In this document: positions 7,640 through 47,844 of the stretch, piece by piece
Position numbering within the stretch: position 1 is the stretch's first letter
Layout of the letters: every line of letters starts with the position of its first letter
Assembly: GCA_025060595.1 (NCBI GenBank)
Contig: JANXBX010000002.1
Location: 140,300-204,299 of the forward strand
Direction of reading: 5' to 3'
DNA from: Synergistota bacterium
GTDB taxonomy: Bacteria; Synergistota; GBS-1
Length of the DNA: 64,000 nucleotides
Position numbers and translations under genes: made by a program
The notes under the pieces: generated by a model
What the model was told of the DNA's origin: nothing
What the model saw: the letters and a program-made list of their open reading frames with translations, nothing else
The model's database searches: none

Positions 7640-7683
7640 CTTTATTAACTTTTCTTTAAAATTCCTTTAAACCTCCTTAAAGC

Positions 7684-7725
7684 TCCCCTCCTAAAATTCT
7701 AAGCAGAAAAAACTAAAGGAGGGGA
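7684..7725 (+). promoter_or_regulatory. Possible SD-sequestering hairpin before alkaline phosphatase
   Basis: TCCCCTCCT at 7684-7692 is the exact complement of AGGAGGGGA at 7717-7725, the SD of the alkaline phosphatase gene. The 9-bp stem with a 24-nt A-rich loop would hide the ribosome-binding site in the mRNA. Seen in sequence; function is inference. Confidence 0.4.
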
Positions 7726-7730
7726 TAAGC

Positions 7731-41495: not shown

Positions 41496-43220
41496 TCAAC
41501 CCTCATTTCCCTCTTCATCTAAGAAAGGATATATAGGTAGCTCAATCTCAACACATGTCTCCTCCCCCGGTCTCTCTAAAAGCCTGAGCTTCATTCCTCC
41601 TTTAAGAGCAAAACTGCTTAAAATGAAAAACTCCGGATCCCTTTCCCCAAAGAGCTTAAAGATGCCTTGAGCGTAAAGCTTCAATGATACCATAGTTTTT
41701 TCCTTAAGATACCTAGTCTCTATTATGGGCTTTCCTTTACCATCCATAACTTTAAGAAGAAGGGCTAAAATGACCCCCTTAAGATAAAGAGGGTTTATCC
41801 AAGGAGAAGGTAGAAAATCTTCAAGGCGAAGCTCAAGCTCTTCGAAAGAAAGCTTATCTTTAAGATCAAGAAGAAGCTTGTTTAAGCTAACTCTGCCAAA
41901 GCTATCCCTTTCAGAGAGTATAACCTCTTTAATCCTTTCAGAGTCTTTACCCTCCTTTAAAAACCTTCCTGAAAGGAAGTATACCAAATTATCCTCGATC
42001 GCCTTAAAGATAGCCTCCTCCTTGGTCTTATCCTCTCCGAAGAGAAGAAAGCCCCCTCTTCTAAGAGGAGCCACCCTGAGAAGAAAAACCCTCTCCCCAA
42101 CCCTAAGAGTACCCTCACCCTTCTTAACTAGTCGCTTAATCTCCTCCTTATCAAGGCCCTCAGGAGGAATATGCTCCCCCTTGATAGAAACTACATCAAG
42201 AGTCCTATCAAGCTCTATAATCACACCAGGGAAAAGCTCCCTTAACTCCTCCAAAGGATCCCTATCCCTTGATTCCTCAAGCTCAACAGGCTTAACCTCT
42301 TCCTTAAGCTCAACAATCTCTGGAAAGGATACGCTTTCCCTCTCCCTTCTTCTATGGAAGATCAAAACCACCGCAGTTATGATAGCCGTAACGAGAGTAA
42401 GGGATGTTTTAAGAAAAAGGGAAAAGGGTCTTAACTCCCTCCCCAACGAGGAAAGCGGAGCGTAAAGGAAAAAATGCCAATCCAATGTTACACCTAGGGG
42501 GACATGACTGTAAACCGAAATATACTCAATTCCGTCAAGCTTCGTACTTTTCACCTTTTCCATAGCTTCTTCCAGTAAAACCTTAGCTACTTTCTCATCT
42601 CCGAGAATCACATTGCCATCGCTATCCACCAAAAGAGGATTCCAAGGAACCTTAAGGGCCTTAAGATACCTACTTAATGCATCTATTAAAACCTGATAAT
42701 TATATACATAAAAGAAGGCCCCCCTAAAGCCTTTGCCCTCATCAAAGACAGGAGCGAAAATTCCTATTCCCTTATCCCCTCTAGATGTAGTTATGGTCTC
42801 CCCTATAAACCCTATCCTAGCAGCCTTAACCGTTTTGAAGGATCTCCAAGAGCTTATATCTTTACCCTCAAGGGCATCATCTTTAGGGTAGGTCATCAAT
42901 ACCTTCCCATTTCTATCTACGAAACCAGACAGGTAAACAAAGGGCTCATAAGCCCTGTAAAAGATAAGGAGCCAGTCTCTTAAAGAATTGTCCTCCAAAG
43001 CGGGCAATTGAATATAGTTAAGGGAGTGGAGCATGACCGTAAGGGATTGAATCCTGCTTCTAAAGAGAAAGGTTACGGTATCTACTAAAACCGATGCACC
43101 TAAAATCTCTCTTTCCCTTAAATCTCTTTCAAGCTTATTAATATAAAAGAAGCTTAAAATGGTAATGGAAATCAAAAGAGTTAGAGAAAAAATCCTAATC
43201 TTAAGCCCCATTTGAGACAA
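41496..43220 (-). CDS. Membrane sensor with Cache domain and degenerate kinase-like end
   Basis: About 574 residues. Membrane segments at roughly 10-28 and 275-297 frame an extracellular double-Cache-like domain (DRNGKVLMTYPKDDALEGKDISSWRSFK...FIGETITTSRGDKGIGIFAPVFDE). The cytosolic part has a Glu-rich linker, a small PAS-like region (about 340-400) and a C-terminal region that resembles a histidine-kinase ATPase domain (LKGVILALLLKVMD, FALKGGMKLRLLERPGEETCVEIELPIY). It lacks an H-box, the N-box Asn and the glycine motifs, so it is probably not a kinase. TTG at 43220 is six bases after AAGGAGGG. Overlaps the sigma factor gene by 20 bp. Confidence 0.72.
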   Translation of the reverse strand: MSQMGLKIRIFSLTLLISITILSFFYINKLERDLREREILGASVLVDTVTFLFRSRIQSLTVMLHSLNYIQLPALEDNSLRDWLLIFYRAYEPFVYLSGFVDRNGKVLMTYPKDDALEGKDISSWRSFKTVKAARIGFIGETITTSRGDKGIGIFAPVFDEGKGFRGAFFYVYNYQVLIDALSRYLKALKVPWNPLLVDSDGNVILGDEKVAKVLLEEAMEKVKSTKLDGIEYISVYSHVPLGVTLDWHFFLYAPLSSLGRELRPFSLFLKTSLTLVTAIITAVVLIFHRRRERESVSFPEIVELKEEVKPVELEESRDRDPLEELRELFPGVIIELDRTLDVVSIKGEHIPPEGLDKEEIKRLVKKGEGTLRVGERVFLLRVAPLRRGGFLLFGEDKTKEEAIFKAIEDNLVYFLSGRFLKEGKDSERIKEVILSERDSFGRVSLNKLLLDLKDKLSFEELELRLEDFLPSPWINPLYLKGVILALLLKVMDGKGKPIIETRYLKEKTMVSLKLYAQGIFKLFGERDPEFFILSSFALKGGMKLRLLERPGEETCVEIELPIYPFLDEEGNEG

Positions 43221-43737
43221 CCTCATCCCTCCTTAAGCTAAAGTTACTAGAGAATTCCCTCTTAAGCTTATCCACTATCCTTCTTCTCCTTAAGTTCACC
43301 CAGCTTCTTGATTTATTAAGCCTTTCCGATATTTGCTTGTCATTATAACCCCAAAGGTAGTAAAGTTCAAGGAGGCTTTTATCCTCACTCGAGACAGGAA
43401 GATCCACATCCTCCACCAGGGAGCTTTCCTCGAAAGACAAATCATCGTTTAGGATTACCCCTTTATTCCAGTTAAGCTCCCTAAGCCAATAGCTCTTTAG
43501 ATGCATCTCAAGGCTCCCCTTAACATAGCCTTCAAGGCGAACGGTCCCTTTCCTATATCTATAAACTAGCCCTATAAGTATAAGATAGCCCTCTTGTCTT
43601 AAGTCCTCATAGCTTCCCCCTTTAAGAGAATACCTTCTAGCTAGAGATTCAACAAGGGGACGAAACCTTTCCACGATCTCAACTAAAAAGGAGGTCTGCC
43701 CGCTTTGAACCGCTAAAACCAATTCCTCTAAGGACAA
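43201..43737 (-). CDS. Sigma-70-like sigma factor (regions 2 and 4 only)
   Basis: 178 residues. Region 2 spans about 15-85 (FRPLVESLARRYSLKGGSYEDLRQEGYLILIGLVYRYRKG, with the core-binding DLRQEG motif); region 4 is near the C-terminus (EDKSLLELYYLWGYNDKQISERLNKSRSWVNLRRRRIVDKLKREF). It should direct RNA polymerase to an alternative promoter set. The start is TTG at 43737, with its SD AGGAG buried in a hairpin. The downstream gene, overlapping it, encodes a membrane sensor, which is a candidate regulator of this sigma factor. No recognised anti-sigma domain is seen. Confidence 0.83.
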   Translation of the reverse strand: MSLEELVLAVQSGQTSFLVEIVERFRPLVESLARRYSLKGGSYEDLRQEGYLILIGLVYRYRKGTVRLEGYVKGSLEMHLKSYWLRELNWNKGVILNDDLSFEESSLVEDVDLPVSSEDKSLLELYYLWGYNDKQISERLNKSRSWVNLRRRRIVDKLKREFSSNFSLRRDEVVSNGA

Positions 43738-43801
43738 GAGAAAACCACTCCTTTCTATAGTAAAAATTTTTACTATAGAATATTTTAGGAGCGGTTTCCT
43801 C
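43738..43801 (-). promoter_or_regulatory. SD-sequestering hairpin before the sigma factor gene
   Basis: The 64 bp between the upstream stop codon and the TTG form one inverted repeat. Outer arms 43801-43787 and 43752-43738 pair over 15 bp in the - strand RNA, with two G-U wobbles. The inside is a perfect 28-bp palindrome (43753-43780, TTCTATAG...CTATAGAA). The SD AGGAG is fully paired. It has no U-run, so a terminator is unlikely; a translational switch is inferred. Confidence 0.7.
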
Positions 43802-44815
43802 TCAACCCTCAGAAATCCTAAAATAAACCTCTAAGGGGCCGATCGTGTAAATATCCTTCTTAGATATCACCTCTAAACGCACCTTTTTTCCTATTTCCTT
43901 TATCTTACCGATAGTATCGTAAAACTCCGCCGCAGTTATAACGCCCACCCTATGATAGAGGGGCTCAGGCAACACCCCCTTACCTAAGGCTATCTCTTTA
44001 ACCTTGCTTAGGACCATCGTAACCTTATACTCAAGCTGATCCTCGGTCAAAGATCCATCGATCTCCTCGGAATATATCTCTTCGTTCCTCTTAAAGATAA
44101 GCTTGTTAGGATAGATCTCTATATTGACGGGAACCCACTCTCCCACAACCACGTTAGCCCCAGCGATAAACCTTACTACCGCTTCTTCCCTGATCTCCTT
44201 CAGCTGAGAGATCGCTTTGCCGACCTCATCAGGATGAACCAATATCGCTCTCATATCGGCAAGGGGCGGCTCCGCCCCTCTCTCCCTAACTATGGGATCT
44301 GCCTCCTCTAGAGCCTTCCCAAGCTCTCGCTCAAGATAGGTTTCGTCATTTTTAACCTTTATCACCTTTTGATAAACGAGCTCGCCCGCTCTATATATTA
44401 TCGTTCTACCCCTTATAGCCGATATGCTCAGATTCAGCCTCCTTGCTATCTCTCGAAGCTCCTCTATCCTGCTTTCGAGCTCTCTCACCCTCTGTGTCTT
44501 TTCCTCAAGCTCTTTGCTCTTTTCCTTCAACAGATCGGTTAAGGCCTTTATCTCCTGTTGAAGGCTCCTCATGCCTAAAAGCGCCCTGTAAACGGAAGGC
44601 ACGGTAAAGGACAGGACCATCATGGTAACAAGCGCAACCGTCAATCCAGTGAATATCGTTATTAAGCTTGTGGTATGCCGTGGCCTTAAACCCCAAATGG
44701 TTAACTTCTTCTTGCTCAGCTTCCATCCAACCTTATCCCCCACGAAGGCTATAAAAGCGCTTAATCCTATTATTATCAAGAAGAGCGGCCAATTAAGTTC
44801 CTTAAAGAAAACCAT
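43802..44815 (-). CDS. DUF3084 family membrane protein
   Basis: 337 residues. Two membrane segments at about 10-28 and 48-70, with GDKVGWKLSKKKLTIWGLRPRHTTSLITIFTG between them, mark the DUF3084 family. A coiled coil (80-130, LQQEIKALTDLLKEKSKELEEKTQRVRELESRIEEL) and a C-terminal soluble domain follow. Function is unknown. SD AGGAGGG precedes the ATG. It lies between the bactofilin/parS region and the sigma factor gene, its stop codon touching the sigma hairpin. Confidence 0.85.
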   Translation of the reverse strand: MVFFKELNWPLFLIIIGLSAFIAFVGDKVGWKLSKKKLTIWGLRPRHTTSLITIFTGLTVALVTMMVLSFTVPSVYRALLGMRSLQQEIKALTDLLKEKSKELEEKTQRVRELESRIEELREIARRLNLSISAIRGRTIIYRAGELVYQKVIKVKNDETYLERELGKALEEADPIVRERGAEPPLADMRAILVHPDEVGKAISQLKEIREEAVVRFIAGANVVVGEWVPVNIEIYPNKLIFKRNEEIYSEEIDGSLTEDQLEYKVTMVLSKVKEIALGKGVLPEPLYHRVGVITAAEFYDTIGKIKEIGKKVRLEVISKKDIYTIGPLEVYFRISEG

Positions 44816-44833
44816 CCCATCCCTCCTAGGGAG

Positions 44834-44849
44834 TGTTCCACGTGGAACA
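44834..44849. promoter_or_regulatory. parS centromere site (intergenic)
   Basis: Perfect 16-bp palindrome TGTTCCACGTGGAACA, extending to 18 bp with the flanking G and C. It differs from the widely conserved parS TGTTTCACGTGAAACA by symmetric changes (T to C and A to G) that keep the palindrome perfect. It lies between the bactofilin and DUF3084 genes, 0.5 kb downstream of parB. Confidence 0.88.
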
Positions 44850-44866
44850 CATCATAACCCCATAAC

Positions 44867-45307
44867 CTACTTAGGTTCGGGATTCTCTCCCTTCTTACCT
44901 TCCCCCTTTTTAACAACCTCGTAAGAGAACTCCTCTTTACCAGATTGAGGAAGAACCATCTCGCTTCTCCCTATAAATATCGCCCCATCGGCTATAACCA
45001 AATTGGGTGTCTTTATATCACCTATTAACCGTCCCGTAGCGACAAGCTCGAGTCTCTCCCTTGCCTCCACATTCCCCTCTACCTTACCTGCTATCAGGAT
45101 GTTCTTGGCAACGAGAGTTGCTTTTACGGTTCCCTTTTCTCCAATCACGACATCCCCTTCAGCGAATATCTCCCCCTCAAAGAAGCCATCTATCCTTACC
45201 GTACCATCTGCCCTCATGGTCCCCCTTATCTCCGTCCCACCCCCTACAAGGGTCTCGGACTTTTCCTTTTCGGCAAGCTTAACCTCTGACCGCCCAAAAA
45301 CCATCAT
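44867..45307 (-). CDS. Bactofilin (polymer-forming cytoskeletal protein)
   Basis: About 146 residues. The central 90 residues are a beta-helix of short repeats (GTEIRGTMRADGTVRIDGFFEGEIFAEGDVVIGEKGTVKATLVAKNILIAGKVEGNVEARERLELVATGRLIGDIKTPNLVIADGAIFIG), the DUF583 pattern, with flexible ends. Bactofilins polymerise into filaments that position cell-envelope enzymes or, in Myxococcus, the ParABS machinery. ATG at 45307 follows AGGAGGTGGGC. It is directly downstream of parB, with a parS site right after it. Confidence 0.9.
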   Translation of the reverse strand: MMVFGRSEVKLAEKEKSETLVGGGTEIRGTMRADGTVRIDGFFEGEIFAEGDVVIGEKGTVKATLVAKNILIAGKVEGNVEARERLELVATGRLIGDIKTPNLVIADGAIFIGRSEMVLPQSGKEEFSYEVVKKGEGKKGENPEPK

Positions 45308-45368
45308 GCCCACCTCCTAACACACTAAAAACTCAGCATATAAAAAATTTTGCTGCCAAATTTTAGGC

Positions 45369-46214
45369 TTATTGCCCAGGCAATTTAGAATCTTGAGATA
45401 AGAGTCTCTCTAACTTCTGAAGAAAATCTTCCATCTCCGATTCGCTGTCAAACAATAGCTCAACGCTATTCTTAACGCCTCTTTTAACTCTCACTTTCGC
45501 ATTATAGGTCTCCAAAAACCTTCTCTCTATTTCTCTATCCCTTTCTATCCCCTTTACCCTTCTTGAAACCTCCCTTTCCACTTCTCTAACGGTTAAAGAA
45601 CGATTAACTACCTCTAAGGCAAGTCTTTTCTGCTCCTCAGGATCATTTAAGGATAATAAGGCTCTAGCATGTCCCATGGTTAACCTTCCCTCAGAAACCA
45701 TATTCTGTAGCTCTTCAGGAAGCCTTAAGAGCCTTAATAAATTTGCCACAGTAGATCTATCTTTTCCTATTTTATCCGCCACTTCCTCTTGAGTTAAACC
45801 AAATCTCTCCATCAAAAGCTTTAAAGCGTTTGCAGCCTCGATAGGGTTTAAGTCTTCCCTCTGAAGGTTTTCTATCAAGGCATACTCCATGCTTTCCTCA
45901 TCGGAAATATCCTTAACTATAGCAGGTATCTTCTGAAAACCAGCCCTTTGGGCAGCCCTATAACGTCTTTCTCCTGCCACTATCTCATATCCCCTATCAA
46001 CCTTACGAACGATTATTGGTTGAAGAAGGCCATGCTGTTTTATAGAGTTAGCGAGCTCCTCAAGCGACTCTTCCGCTAAAATCTTCCTAGGCTGATAAGG
46101 ATTAGGAACTATCTCCTCTATCGGAATTTCAATAAGCCTTTCCTTCTCGGGACCGGTTGGAATAAGAGCACCTAACCCTTTGCCTAGCCCTCCCCTTGTG
46201 GGCTTAAGAGGCAT
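45369..46214 (-). CDS. parB: Chromosome partitioning protein ParB (Spo0J)
   Basis: 281 residues. The N-terminal CTP-binding motif region (VDRGYEIVAGERRYRAAQRAGFQKIPAIV, with ENLQREDLNPIEAANALKLL) and the helix-turn-helix LTQEEVADKIGKDRSTVANLLRLLRLP are clear, with a C-terminal dimerisation part. At the two positions that separate ParB from Noc it has Arg and Leu (GKDRSTVANL). It should load at parS and spread as a clamp. The gene starts four bases after the parA stop. Confidence 0.94.
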   Translation of the reverse strand: MPLKPTRGGLGKGLGALIPTGPEKERLIEIPIEEIVPNPYQPRKILAEESLEELANSIKQHGLLQPIIVRKVDRGYEIVAGERRYRAAQRAGFQKIPAIVKDISDEESMEYALIENLQREDLNPIEAANALKLLMERFGLTQEEVADKIGKDRSTVANLLRLLRLPEELQNMVSEGRLTMGHARALLSLNDPEEQKRLALEVVNRSLTVREVEREVSRRVKGIERDREIERRFLETYNAKVRVKRGVKNSVELLFDSESEMEDFLQKLERLLSQDSKLPGQ

Positions 46215-46217
46215 CCT

Positions 46218-46991
46218 TTATCCTCTCCTTCCCCTTACAAACTCCTTCGCAAGCGAAATATAGGCTTGTGCCCCATTAGATTGAGGAGCATAGTATATTA
46301 CAGGCTTTCCATAACTTGGAGCCTCGCTAACCCTCACGCTTCTGGGTATGATAGATTTGTATACCTTATCCTTAAAATAATTTCTCACTTCATCCGCAAC
46401 CTGCTGAGCAAGTTTCGTTCTCGAGTCAAACATCGTTAGAAGAACCCCATAAATCTCTAACTTAGGATTGAGATACTCCTTTACCAAATCTATAGTCTTT
46501 AAAAGCTGACCCAATCCTTCAAGGGCATAATATTCACATTGAATAGGTATAACAACCCCATCAGCAGCCGTTAAAGCGTTTATAGTTAAAAGCCCCAGAG
46601 AAGGAGGACAATCCATAAATATATAATCATACCTATCTACTAGTCCCTCCAAACCTCTCTTTAGACGCGTTTCACGTGAAACAGCGTTAACTAACTCTAT
46701 CTCGGCTCCCGCCAAATCTATGTTGGAAGGGATAAGATCGAGGTTTTTATATACCCCCTTAATTATAGCCTCTTCCGCCTTAATCCTTCCCAGAAGGACA
46801 TCATACAAGCTATTTTTAATCTCCTCCTTCTCTATACCCAATCCACTTGTAGCGTTTCCCTGAGGATCCACATCTACAAGAAGCACCTTCTTCCCTAAGG
46901 AAGCGATCGCCGAAGATAGATTCACTGCAGTAGTGCTCTTTCCAACACCACCCTTTTGATTAGCGAGAGCCACTACCCTGCCACTCTTCAT
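46218..46991 (-). CDS. parA: Chromosome partitioning ATPase ParA (Soj)
   Basis: About 257 residues. The deviant Walker A KGGVGKST (residues 13-20), LVDVDPQGNATSGLG, and FMDCPPSLGLLTINAL define the ParA family. It dimerises with ATP on DNA and moves ParB-parS complexes. ATG at 46991 is eight bases after AAGGGG; an in-frame GTG lies at 47000. It carries a parS site inside the coding sequence and overlaps noc by 32 bp. Confidence 0.95.
   Translation of the reverse strand: MKSGRVVALANQKGGVGKSTTAVNLSSAIASLGKKVLLVDVDPQGNATSGLGIEKEEIKNSLYDVLLGRIKAEEAIIKGVYKNLDLIPSNIDLAGAEIELVNAVSRETRLKRGLEGLVDRYDYIFMDCPPSLGLLTINALTAADGVVIPIQCEYYALEGLGQLLKTIDLVKEYLNPKLEIYGVLLTMFDSRTKLAQQVADEVRNYFKDKVYKSIIPRSVRVSEAPSYGKPVIYYAPQSNGAQAYISLAKEFVRGRRG
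46668..46683. promoter_or_regulatory. parS centromere site inside parA
   Basis: CGTTTCACGTGAAACA, identical to the canonical parS TGTTTCACGTGAAACA except for one end base. It lies in the coding region of parA, as parS sites near the origin often do. Confidence 0.87.
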
Positions 46992-47844
46992 TTCCTTCAC
47001 CCCTTAAAAAAGAAATCCTCAGCTCATTCCTTTCCTCATCCAAAATCACGTTAAAAGTTAAACCATATTTTTTAAACTTCGAAAGTGTTTTAGAAATAAT
47101 ACTATACAAATCTTCCAGCGTTTGAGGTGTAGATTCTCTCTCCTTCATTTCCCGGGAAATTAAACCTAGCATTTTATCTACCAACTCTTCCGTTTGATTA
47201 ACATTTAACTTTCTCTGTTCTATCTGCTTTAACGCTTTGATCATATCTGATTCAGAGGAAAGCTTTAACAGGGCTCTCGCATGTCTCTCTGTTATGGTCC
47301 CATCCATCAGTTTTTCCTGAACAACAAGTGGAAGCCTTAACAATCTAAGCTTATTTGCTATAGTAGATTGCTTTTTCCCTACCATCTGCGCTATTTCCTC
47401 TTGAGTTAAGTCAAACTCTTGCATCAGCCTCTTATATCCATAAGCTTCCTCTATTGGATTTAAGTCTGATCTTTGAAGGTTTTCTACAAGAGCGAAAGAG
47501 AGTGCTTCCTTGTCCGTTGCCTCAACCACCATGGCAGGAATGTAAGAAAGCCCGGCTAACCTTGCAGCCCTCCATCTTCTTTCACCAGCTATTAGCTCAT
47601 ATCTATTCTCCCCTATCTCCCTTACGATAATAGGCTGAAGAACCCCTACTTCCTTTATCGAAGAGGCAAGCTCCTCTAAAGACTCAGCATCTATATTCTT
47701 CCTTGGCTGATAAGGATTAAGGACTATCGAGTCGATGGAAATGCTTCTTACCCCTTTCTCTCCCTCCGTCCTTTCGACCTTAAGAGCCTGTAACGACTGA
47801 CTAAGATCTTCCTTTTTCTCTCCCTTGGCTTTCCCAAACCACAC
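46960..47844 (-). CDS. noc: Nucleoid occlusion protein Noc (ParB paralogue)
   Basis: 294 residues. ParB-like domains: CTP-binding region (RYELIAGERRWRAARLAGLSYIPAMV; ENLQRSDLNPIEEAYGYKRL) and helix-turn-helix LTQEEIAQMVGKKQSTIANKLRLLRLP, with the Noc-type Gln and Lys (GKKQSTIANK) where ParB has Arg and Thr/Leu. ITERHARALL and NVNQTEELVDKML also match Bacillus Noc. Residues 1-15 (MWFGKAKGEKKEDLS) are short and could act as the membrane-contact peptide. Position between rsmG and parA is the Bacillus order. The start is GTG, seven bases after AAGGAGGTG. Confidence 0.9.
   Translation of the reverse strand: MWFGKAKGEKKEDLSQSLQALKVERTEGEKGVRSISIDSIVLNPYQPRKNIDAESLEELASSIKEVGVLQPIIVREIGENRYELIAGERRWRAARLAGLSYIPAMVVEATDKEALSFALVENLQRSDLNPIEEAYGYKRLMQEFDLTQEEIAQMVGKKQSTIANKLRLLRLPLVVQEKLMDGTITERHARALLKLSSESDMIKALKQIEQRKLNVNQTEELVDKMLGLISREMKERESTPQTLEDLYSIISKTLSKFKKYGLTFNVILDEERNELRISFLRGEGNEEWQGSGSR
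47147..47160. promoter_or_regulatory. Noc-binding site inside noc
   Basis: ATTTCCCGGGAAAT, a perfect 14-bp palindrome identical to the consensus Noc-binding site described for Bacillus subtilis. It lies within the noc coding region. Confidence 0.85.

Follow-up and report, generated by a model that had tools for sequence, protein, structure and literature searches.

Translation of neighbouring genes can be coupled by intercistronic hairpins that sequester a Shine-Dalgarno (SD) sequence: the hairpin stands right after the stop codon of the upstream gene and buries the SD of the next one. No promoter is needed in such an arrangement, dependence of the downstream gene on upstream translation is predicted, and the position of the hairpin is the same as in the intergenic gap examined here.

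Two groups of genes are closer still in their design. For sigG (spoIIIG) of Bacillus subtilis, a hairpin of more than 20 bp has been proposed as a block to mRNA that reads through from spoIIGA-sigE; in the passage of PMC5942855 that deals with it (citing Sun 1991 and Masuda 1988), this hairpin is described as unable to form in mRNA from sigG's own promoter. In phage T4, the SDs of I-TevI, I-TevII, I-TevIII, segB, soc and e are hidden in long early mRNAs and free in late mRNAs (PMC2988022).

The locus presented here is similar to sigG as described in PMC5942855 in that a sigma gene with a non-ATG start codon stands behind another gene, with a long hairpin and a promoter of its own, here a putative one, between the two. 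It differs by its gene neighbour and its phylum, by a promoter that is predicted and sigma-A-like, and by an inner arm that is a near-invariant palindrome, one half of which is common to another operon. With the I-TevI group of T4 it has in common that the SD is hidden in upstream transcripts, and that mRNA from the promoter would lack the 5′ part of the structure (PMC2988022); there, however, phage late genes and late promoters are concerned, and here a chromosomal sigma gene. By analogy, we claim a likeness of function to the sigG and T4 I-TevI systems, which combine hairpin, block and nested promoter, as may be the case here.

Locus and predicted structure

The window, that is, the whole stretch of 64,000 nucleotides that was analysed, belongs to a 1.86-Mb draft genome of a Synergistota bacterium (G000). 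The presence of dnaA, parA/parB and gyrase genes suggests that it is the replication origin region. Genes on the minus strand follow the order ParB-ParA-ParB, a bactofilin-like gene, a DUF3084 gene (43802-44815; Pfam E 2.9e-21), the gene of a sigma-70-family factor (43201-43737; TTG start, 178 aa) and a Cache-domain sensor. The sigma gene product scores above the Pfam cut-off for Sigma70_r2 and slightly below it for Sigma70_r4. The parB-like genes on either side of parA (45369-47844), near the presumed origin, are two different genes.

The DUF3084 stop codon and the sigma TTG are separated by 64 bp (43738-43801, minus strand) that fold as one nested hairpin over the sigma translation start, and read-through mRNA of the DUF3084 gene would carry this hairpin. 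An earlier note on this DNA had described the gap as a nested inverted repeat, with coordinates that proved exact. In the fold of the minus-strand RNA, an outer stem of 17 bp is formed by a 5′ arm (43787-43803), which carries the anti-SD, and a 3′ arm (43736-43752). The stem is followed on its 5′ side only by the 6-nt A/U-rich bulge AAAAUA (AAAATA in the DNA, 43781-43786, minus strand), and then by a perfect 28-bp palindrome, TTCTATAGTAAAAATTTTTACTATAGAA, which had also been recognized earlier and was located at 43753-43780. The arms had been given as 15 bp long with two G-U pairs; these two pairs are present, and the helix extends to 17 bp, with a third G-U pair, because some stop-codon and TTG bases join the pairing. 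The SD AGGAG (43748-43752, minus strand) is fully paired in the predicted fold of the read-through RNA, as had been proposed. Beyond the earlier note are the bulge and two features presented below, a promoter-like site nested in the hairpin and the recurrence of AAAAATTTTTACTATAG.

The predicted energy of the minus-strand RNA of the gap is -48.9 kcal/mol, against a mean of -21.0 kcal/mol for dinucleotide shuffles (z -9.7), and none of 200 shuffles was as stable. When the 54 same-strand gaps with lengths of 30-120 nt found within about 460 kb of G000 were each compared with their mononucleotide shuffles, the sigma gap ranked first with a z of -12.6; the next one reached -7.4. Elsewhere in the window, in the gap at 7640-7730 before an alkaline-phosphatase-like gene, the SD can also be buried by pairing of CCCCTCCT with AAGGAGGGG (z -4.2), and the antisense fold of that gap is better than the sense fold.

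Conservation in the family

All four genomes that are known from this GTDB family have the gap between the same two genes, and the covariation test rests on their four sequences: G000, G001 from the same genus, and G002 and G003 from elsewhere in the family. The gene order is kept in every genome where it is readable. In G001 the gap is distributed over two contigs, each of which ends within the palindrome; they were joined for the analysis at their shared 18 nt. The repeat probably caused the assembly to break at these contig ends (first bases of L033 and L039).

All four gaps fold, with energies of -40.0, -34.8, -20.8 and -39.3 kcal/mol for G000 to G003 in this comparison. The outer arms diverge widely in sequence and keep their complementarity; when G000 and G001 are compared, the outer stem shows A-U/C-G double changes. 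The duplex energies of the arms are -26.0 (G000), -23.9 (G001), -16.3 (G002) and -26.6 (G003), and in every one of the four genomes none of 1000 shuffles paired as well. The best partner of each 5′ arm is its own 3′ arm, the energies of cross pairs being -8.7 to -21.0; a weak point is that the 3′ arm of G002 pairs better with the 5′ arm of G000 than with that of its own genome. The mRNA sense strand folds better than the antisense strand in three of the four genomes. The hairpin, its conservation and its covariation are supported by computation: the structure is real and is conserved in the four family genomes, and the covariation that the earlier note had suggested looking for in relatives is found. 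Selection for RNA structure in the sense transcript, also put forward there, is supported by the covarying arms of the four genomes and by the better sense folding in three of them.

The earlier reading is supported in part; the conservation of the palindrome at the level of the DNA is not explained by RNA pairing. The sequence TTCTATAGTAAAAATTTTTACTATAGA is shared by G000, G001 and G003, whose 28-bp palindromes are identical save for the last right-hand A, which is G in G003; the palindrome is altered in G002, which has TATATAGTGAAAATTTTACTATAGG. The left edge of the G002 version is without symmetry, yet makes a better -10 element (see below), and an A-to-G change in the left half is still accommodated by a G-U pair in the mRNA. 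The spacing of the half-sites is shifted by one base in this genome, with retention of RNA pairing. The length from the stop codon to the palindrome is constant in the four genomes despite the turnover of sequence, and the 3′ side measures from 13 to 17 nt.

Putative nested promoter

A sigma-A-like element, TTGARA-17 bp-TATTCT or TATTAT, is found at the same position of the gap in all four genomes. In G000, the putative -35 TTGAGA (43800-43805, minus strand) overlaps the TGA stop codon of the DUF3084 gene, the 17-bp spacer coincides for the most part with the 5′ arm, and the putative -10 TATTCT (43777-43782, minus strand) lies at the left edge of the palindrome. In G001, G002 and G003, TTGAAG, TTGAAA and TTGAAA are followed after exactly 17 nt by TATTCT, TATTAT and TATTCT, respectively. 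A scan of 43500-45500 with a sigma-70-like pattern returned one site, TTGAGA-17-TATTCT, where 2.3 are expected by chance, so that a match in a single sequence is uninformative by itself; the individual matches are mediocre, with 8-10 of 12 positions. When the four gaps were searched openly for their best shared sigma-A site, the result was exactly the TTGARA-17-TATTCT site, and a common site as good was obtained with 5 of 20,000 independent shuffles and with 243 of 20,000 column shuffles. The base preceding the TGA is T in the four genomes, though the last codon differs (GGT, GCT, TCT and GTT). The tRNA genes of G000 have TTGACA-17-TATAAT-like promoters.

From the position of the -10, the start of transcription is predicted at 43769-43772 (minus strand), in the left half of the palindrome; mRNA from this promoter would likely begin there, 6-8 nt past the -10. 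Since the start point would lie inside the palindrome, such an mRNA would be devoid of the 5′ arm. In the folding model at 37 °C, the mean unpaired probability of the SD in promoter-born versus read-through mRNA is 0.21 versus 0.01 in G000, 0.62 versus 0.01 in G001, 0.20 versus 0.01 in G002 and 0.35 versus 0.21 in G003. A start inside the palindrome had been named in the earlier note as a refutation of its reading. The conserved putative promoter makes such a start likely, so that any action of the hairpin is probably confined to read-through mRNA.

On balance, and with modest confidence, the gap is interpreted as a read-through insulator with a nested promoter, in which one half of the palindrome is also a shared DNA element. 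Read-through mRNA from the DUF3084 gene would fold and bury the sigma SD (in G003 the region of the TTG start), as the computed structures support. We infer that the promoter is used and that the hairpin blocks translation of the sigma gene from read-through mRNA; with its start buried there, the sigma factor would not be made from background transcription. The sigma-A-type promoter, for which its conservation argues, would give an mRNA that lacks the 5′ arm and exposes its start more readily. The right half of the palindrome would be a DNA element in common with the DUF1659-DUF2922-M15 peptidase operon described below. Some of the modelling speaks against an insulator. The SD is still partly paired in mRNA with the inner start, and in G003, where the outer stem covers the TTG start codon region instead of the SD, the SD is located in an internal loop and no difference between promoter-born and read-through mRNA is left above 70 °C.

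The strongest rival to the insulator reading is translational coupling, which is possible but rather unlikely. There would be no internal promoter, the ribosome finishing the DUF3084 gene would melt the 5′ arm, and the amount of sigma factor would be proportional to DUF3084 translation. The geometry of the gap would suit this process: in each of the four genomes, about 0-7 nt separate the stop codon from the beginning of the 5′ arm, and a terminating ribosome could reach the anti-SD, which lies some 7-16 nt past that codon. The constant distance between stop codon and palindrome is also compatible with coupling, and the DUF3084-sigma gene order is conserved wherever readable. What coupling leaves unexplained is the conserved TTGARA-17-TATTCT, the invariant T at the end of four different last codons, and the sequence conservation of the palindrome together with its second site.

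Shared DNA element

The 17-mer AAAAATTTTTACTATAG, which is half of the palindrome (43755-43771, minus strand), is also present upstream of a DUF1659-DUF2922 operon. Exact matches in G000, G001 and G003 are confined to the sigma gap and to this second site; in G002, the copy upstream of the operon has two mismatches. The operon comprises a DUF1659-like gene, an assignment that is weak and under the Pfam cut-off (E 0.0043, 4.1e-5 and 6.8e-4), a DUF2922 gene (E 2.9e-18) and an M15 peptidase gene that is part of it in G000 (E 6.3e-20). At the second site the motif comes directly after a terminator-like hairpin and is without a palindromic partner; as it is not palindromic in the same way there, a role of the motif as DNA is likely. 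The shared element would probably provide common control of the sigma gene and of its likely target operon, through a binder that we infer.

The full palindrome occurs once in the G000 genome. With the half-sites at 10-bp spacing, no second perfect site was found in G000, where matches with two mismatches numbered 30, against 11 for a reversed-pattern control; G001, G002 and G003 were without clear excess over the control. A hairpin design burying the SD in common with the DUF1659 operon was also considered. Hairpins can be folded there in four genomes, but they are little or no better than shuffles, for which reason the idea was dropped; the spacer upstream of DUF1659 is pyrimidine-rich and its arms have no preference for their own partner.

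More tentatively, the palindrome may work at two levels, which is considered unlikely: as the DNA site of a factor, possibly the sigma holoenzyme, that coordinates the sigma gene and the DUF1659-DUF2922-peptidase operon, and as the core of an RNA hairpin that silences read-through sigma mRNA. If this were true, hairpin and operator would be evolutionarily locked into an all-or-none sigma switch, and the cis-element would have outlasted the unlinking of the sigma gene from the operon.

That the palindrome is mainly the DNA operator of a dimeric regulator, which perhaps acts on the DUF1659-DUF2922 operon as well as on the sigma gene, with the hairpin as a by-product of symmetry, is improbable. 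An operator would account for a palindrome that is the same in genera with about 65% identity between their sigma proteins, and for the exact copy of a half-site in front of a second operon, which adjoins a sigma homologue in other Synergistota. The covarying outer arms, on the other hand, are outside the palindrome and cannot be its by-product, and the change of half-site spacing in G002 left RNA pairing intact. In addition, the second site does not share the symmetry of the first, and the four genomes contain no other full palindrome.

Signal-responsive and other explanations

A structure that opens the SD on a signal, be it an RNA thermometer, a riboswitch or the site of an RNA-binding protein, is very improbable, although the conserved inner stem-loop and the one-sided A/U-rich bulge could form a recognition site. 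The thermometer, one of the options of the earlier note, appears unlikely from the modelling, as the SD is still 89-94% paired at 70-80 °C in G000, G001 and G002; in G003 it is loose from about 50 °C upward. The lineage is presumably heat-loving. Above the gathering score, Rfam covariance models matched a tRNA and no cis-regulatory family in the window, and the motif copy after the terminator-like hairpin, lacking a palindromic partner, also argues against a signal-dependent RNA.

A transcription terminator or the remnant of a mobile element, which a strong inverted repeat in a gap may call to mind, is hardly conceivable and is excluded by the sequence, as no U-tract follows the stem, no terminator is called in 43500-45500, and the repeat occurs nowhere else in the genome and keeps its place in four genomes.

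Sigma homologues and the DUF1659-DUF2922 genes

At least 14 genomes of other Synergistota have a homologue of the sigma gene no more than about 2 kb from DUF1659. The gene that precedes the homologue resembles an M15 peptidase, as judged by eye where the upstream end was read. The window sigma factor groups with these DUF1659-adjacent homologues and not with the paralogue on contig C4 (support 87/86). From the adjacency elsewhere and from this grouping, the sigma gene probably left the DUF1659 operon in the present family, both loci keeping the common element.

Upstream of DUF1659, several Synergistota genera (L072-L101) have a TTTGTAT-17-CACTCTTATA element, first spotted by eye, the consensus of which was taken from genus g19. 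Matches to it number 17 of 17 in g25, 14 in g20, 13-14 in g15, 13 in g13 and 12-13 in g26, with a mean of about 9-10 for shuffles; nothing was seen upstream of DUF1659 in several other Synergistota genera. The element may serve the adjacent sigma factor as its promoter. Inspected by eye in both directions, the sigma gap itself is without it.

Should the proposed insulation be confirmed, a design of Bacillus sporulation and of phage T4 would be extended to a Synergistota lineage. With a sigma factor guarded once more, insulation from background transcription would seem to be a recurrent feature of sigma genes. In the literature searched, DUF1659 or DUF2922 is named in a single paper; a lead to these genes is offered by the related sigma gene that adjoins them in those genomes and by the candidate promoter of several genera, and where the loci have separated, the shared element ties them to the sigma gene. 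In all four family genomes, a conserved block consisting of AAAAATTTTTNCTNTAGCAAA and CATCTATAT is also present upstream of the DUF1659-like, DUF2922 and M15 peptidase genes, which are located at L037 (542-1469, contig C6 of G000) and at L042, L045 and L107.
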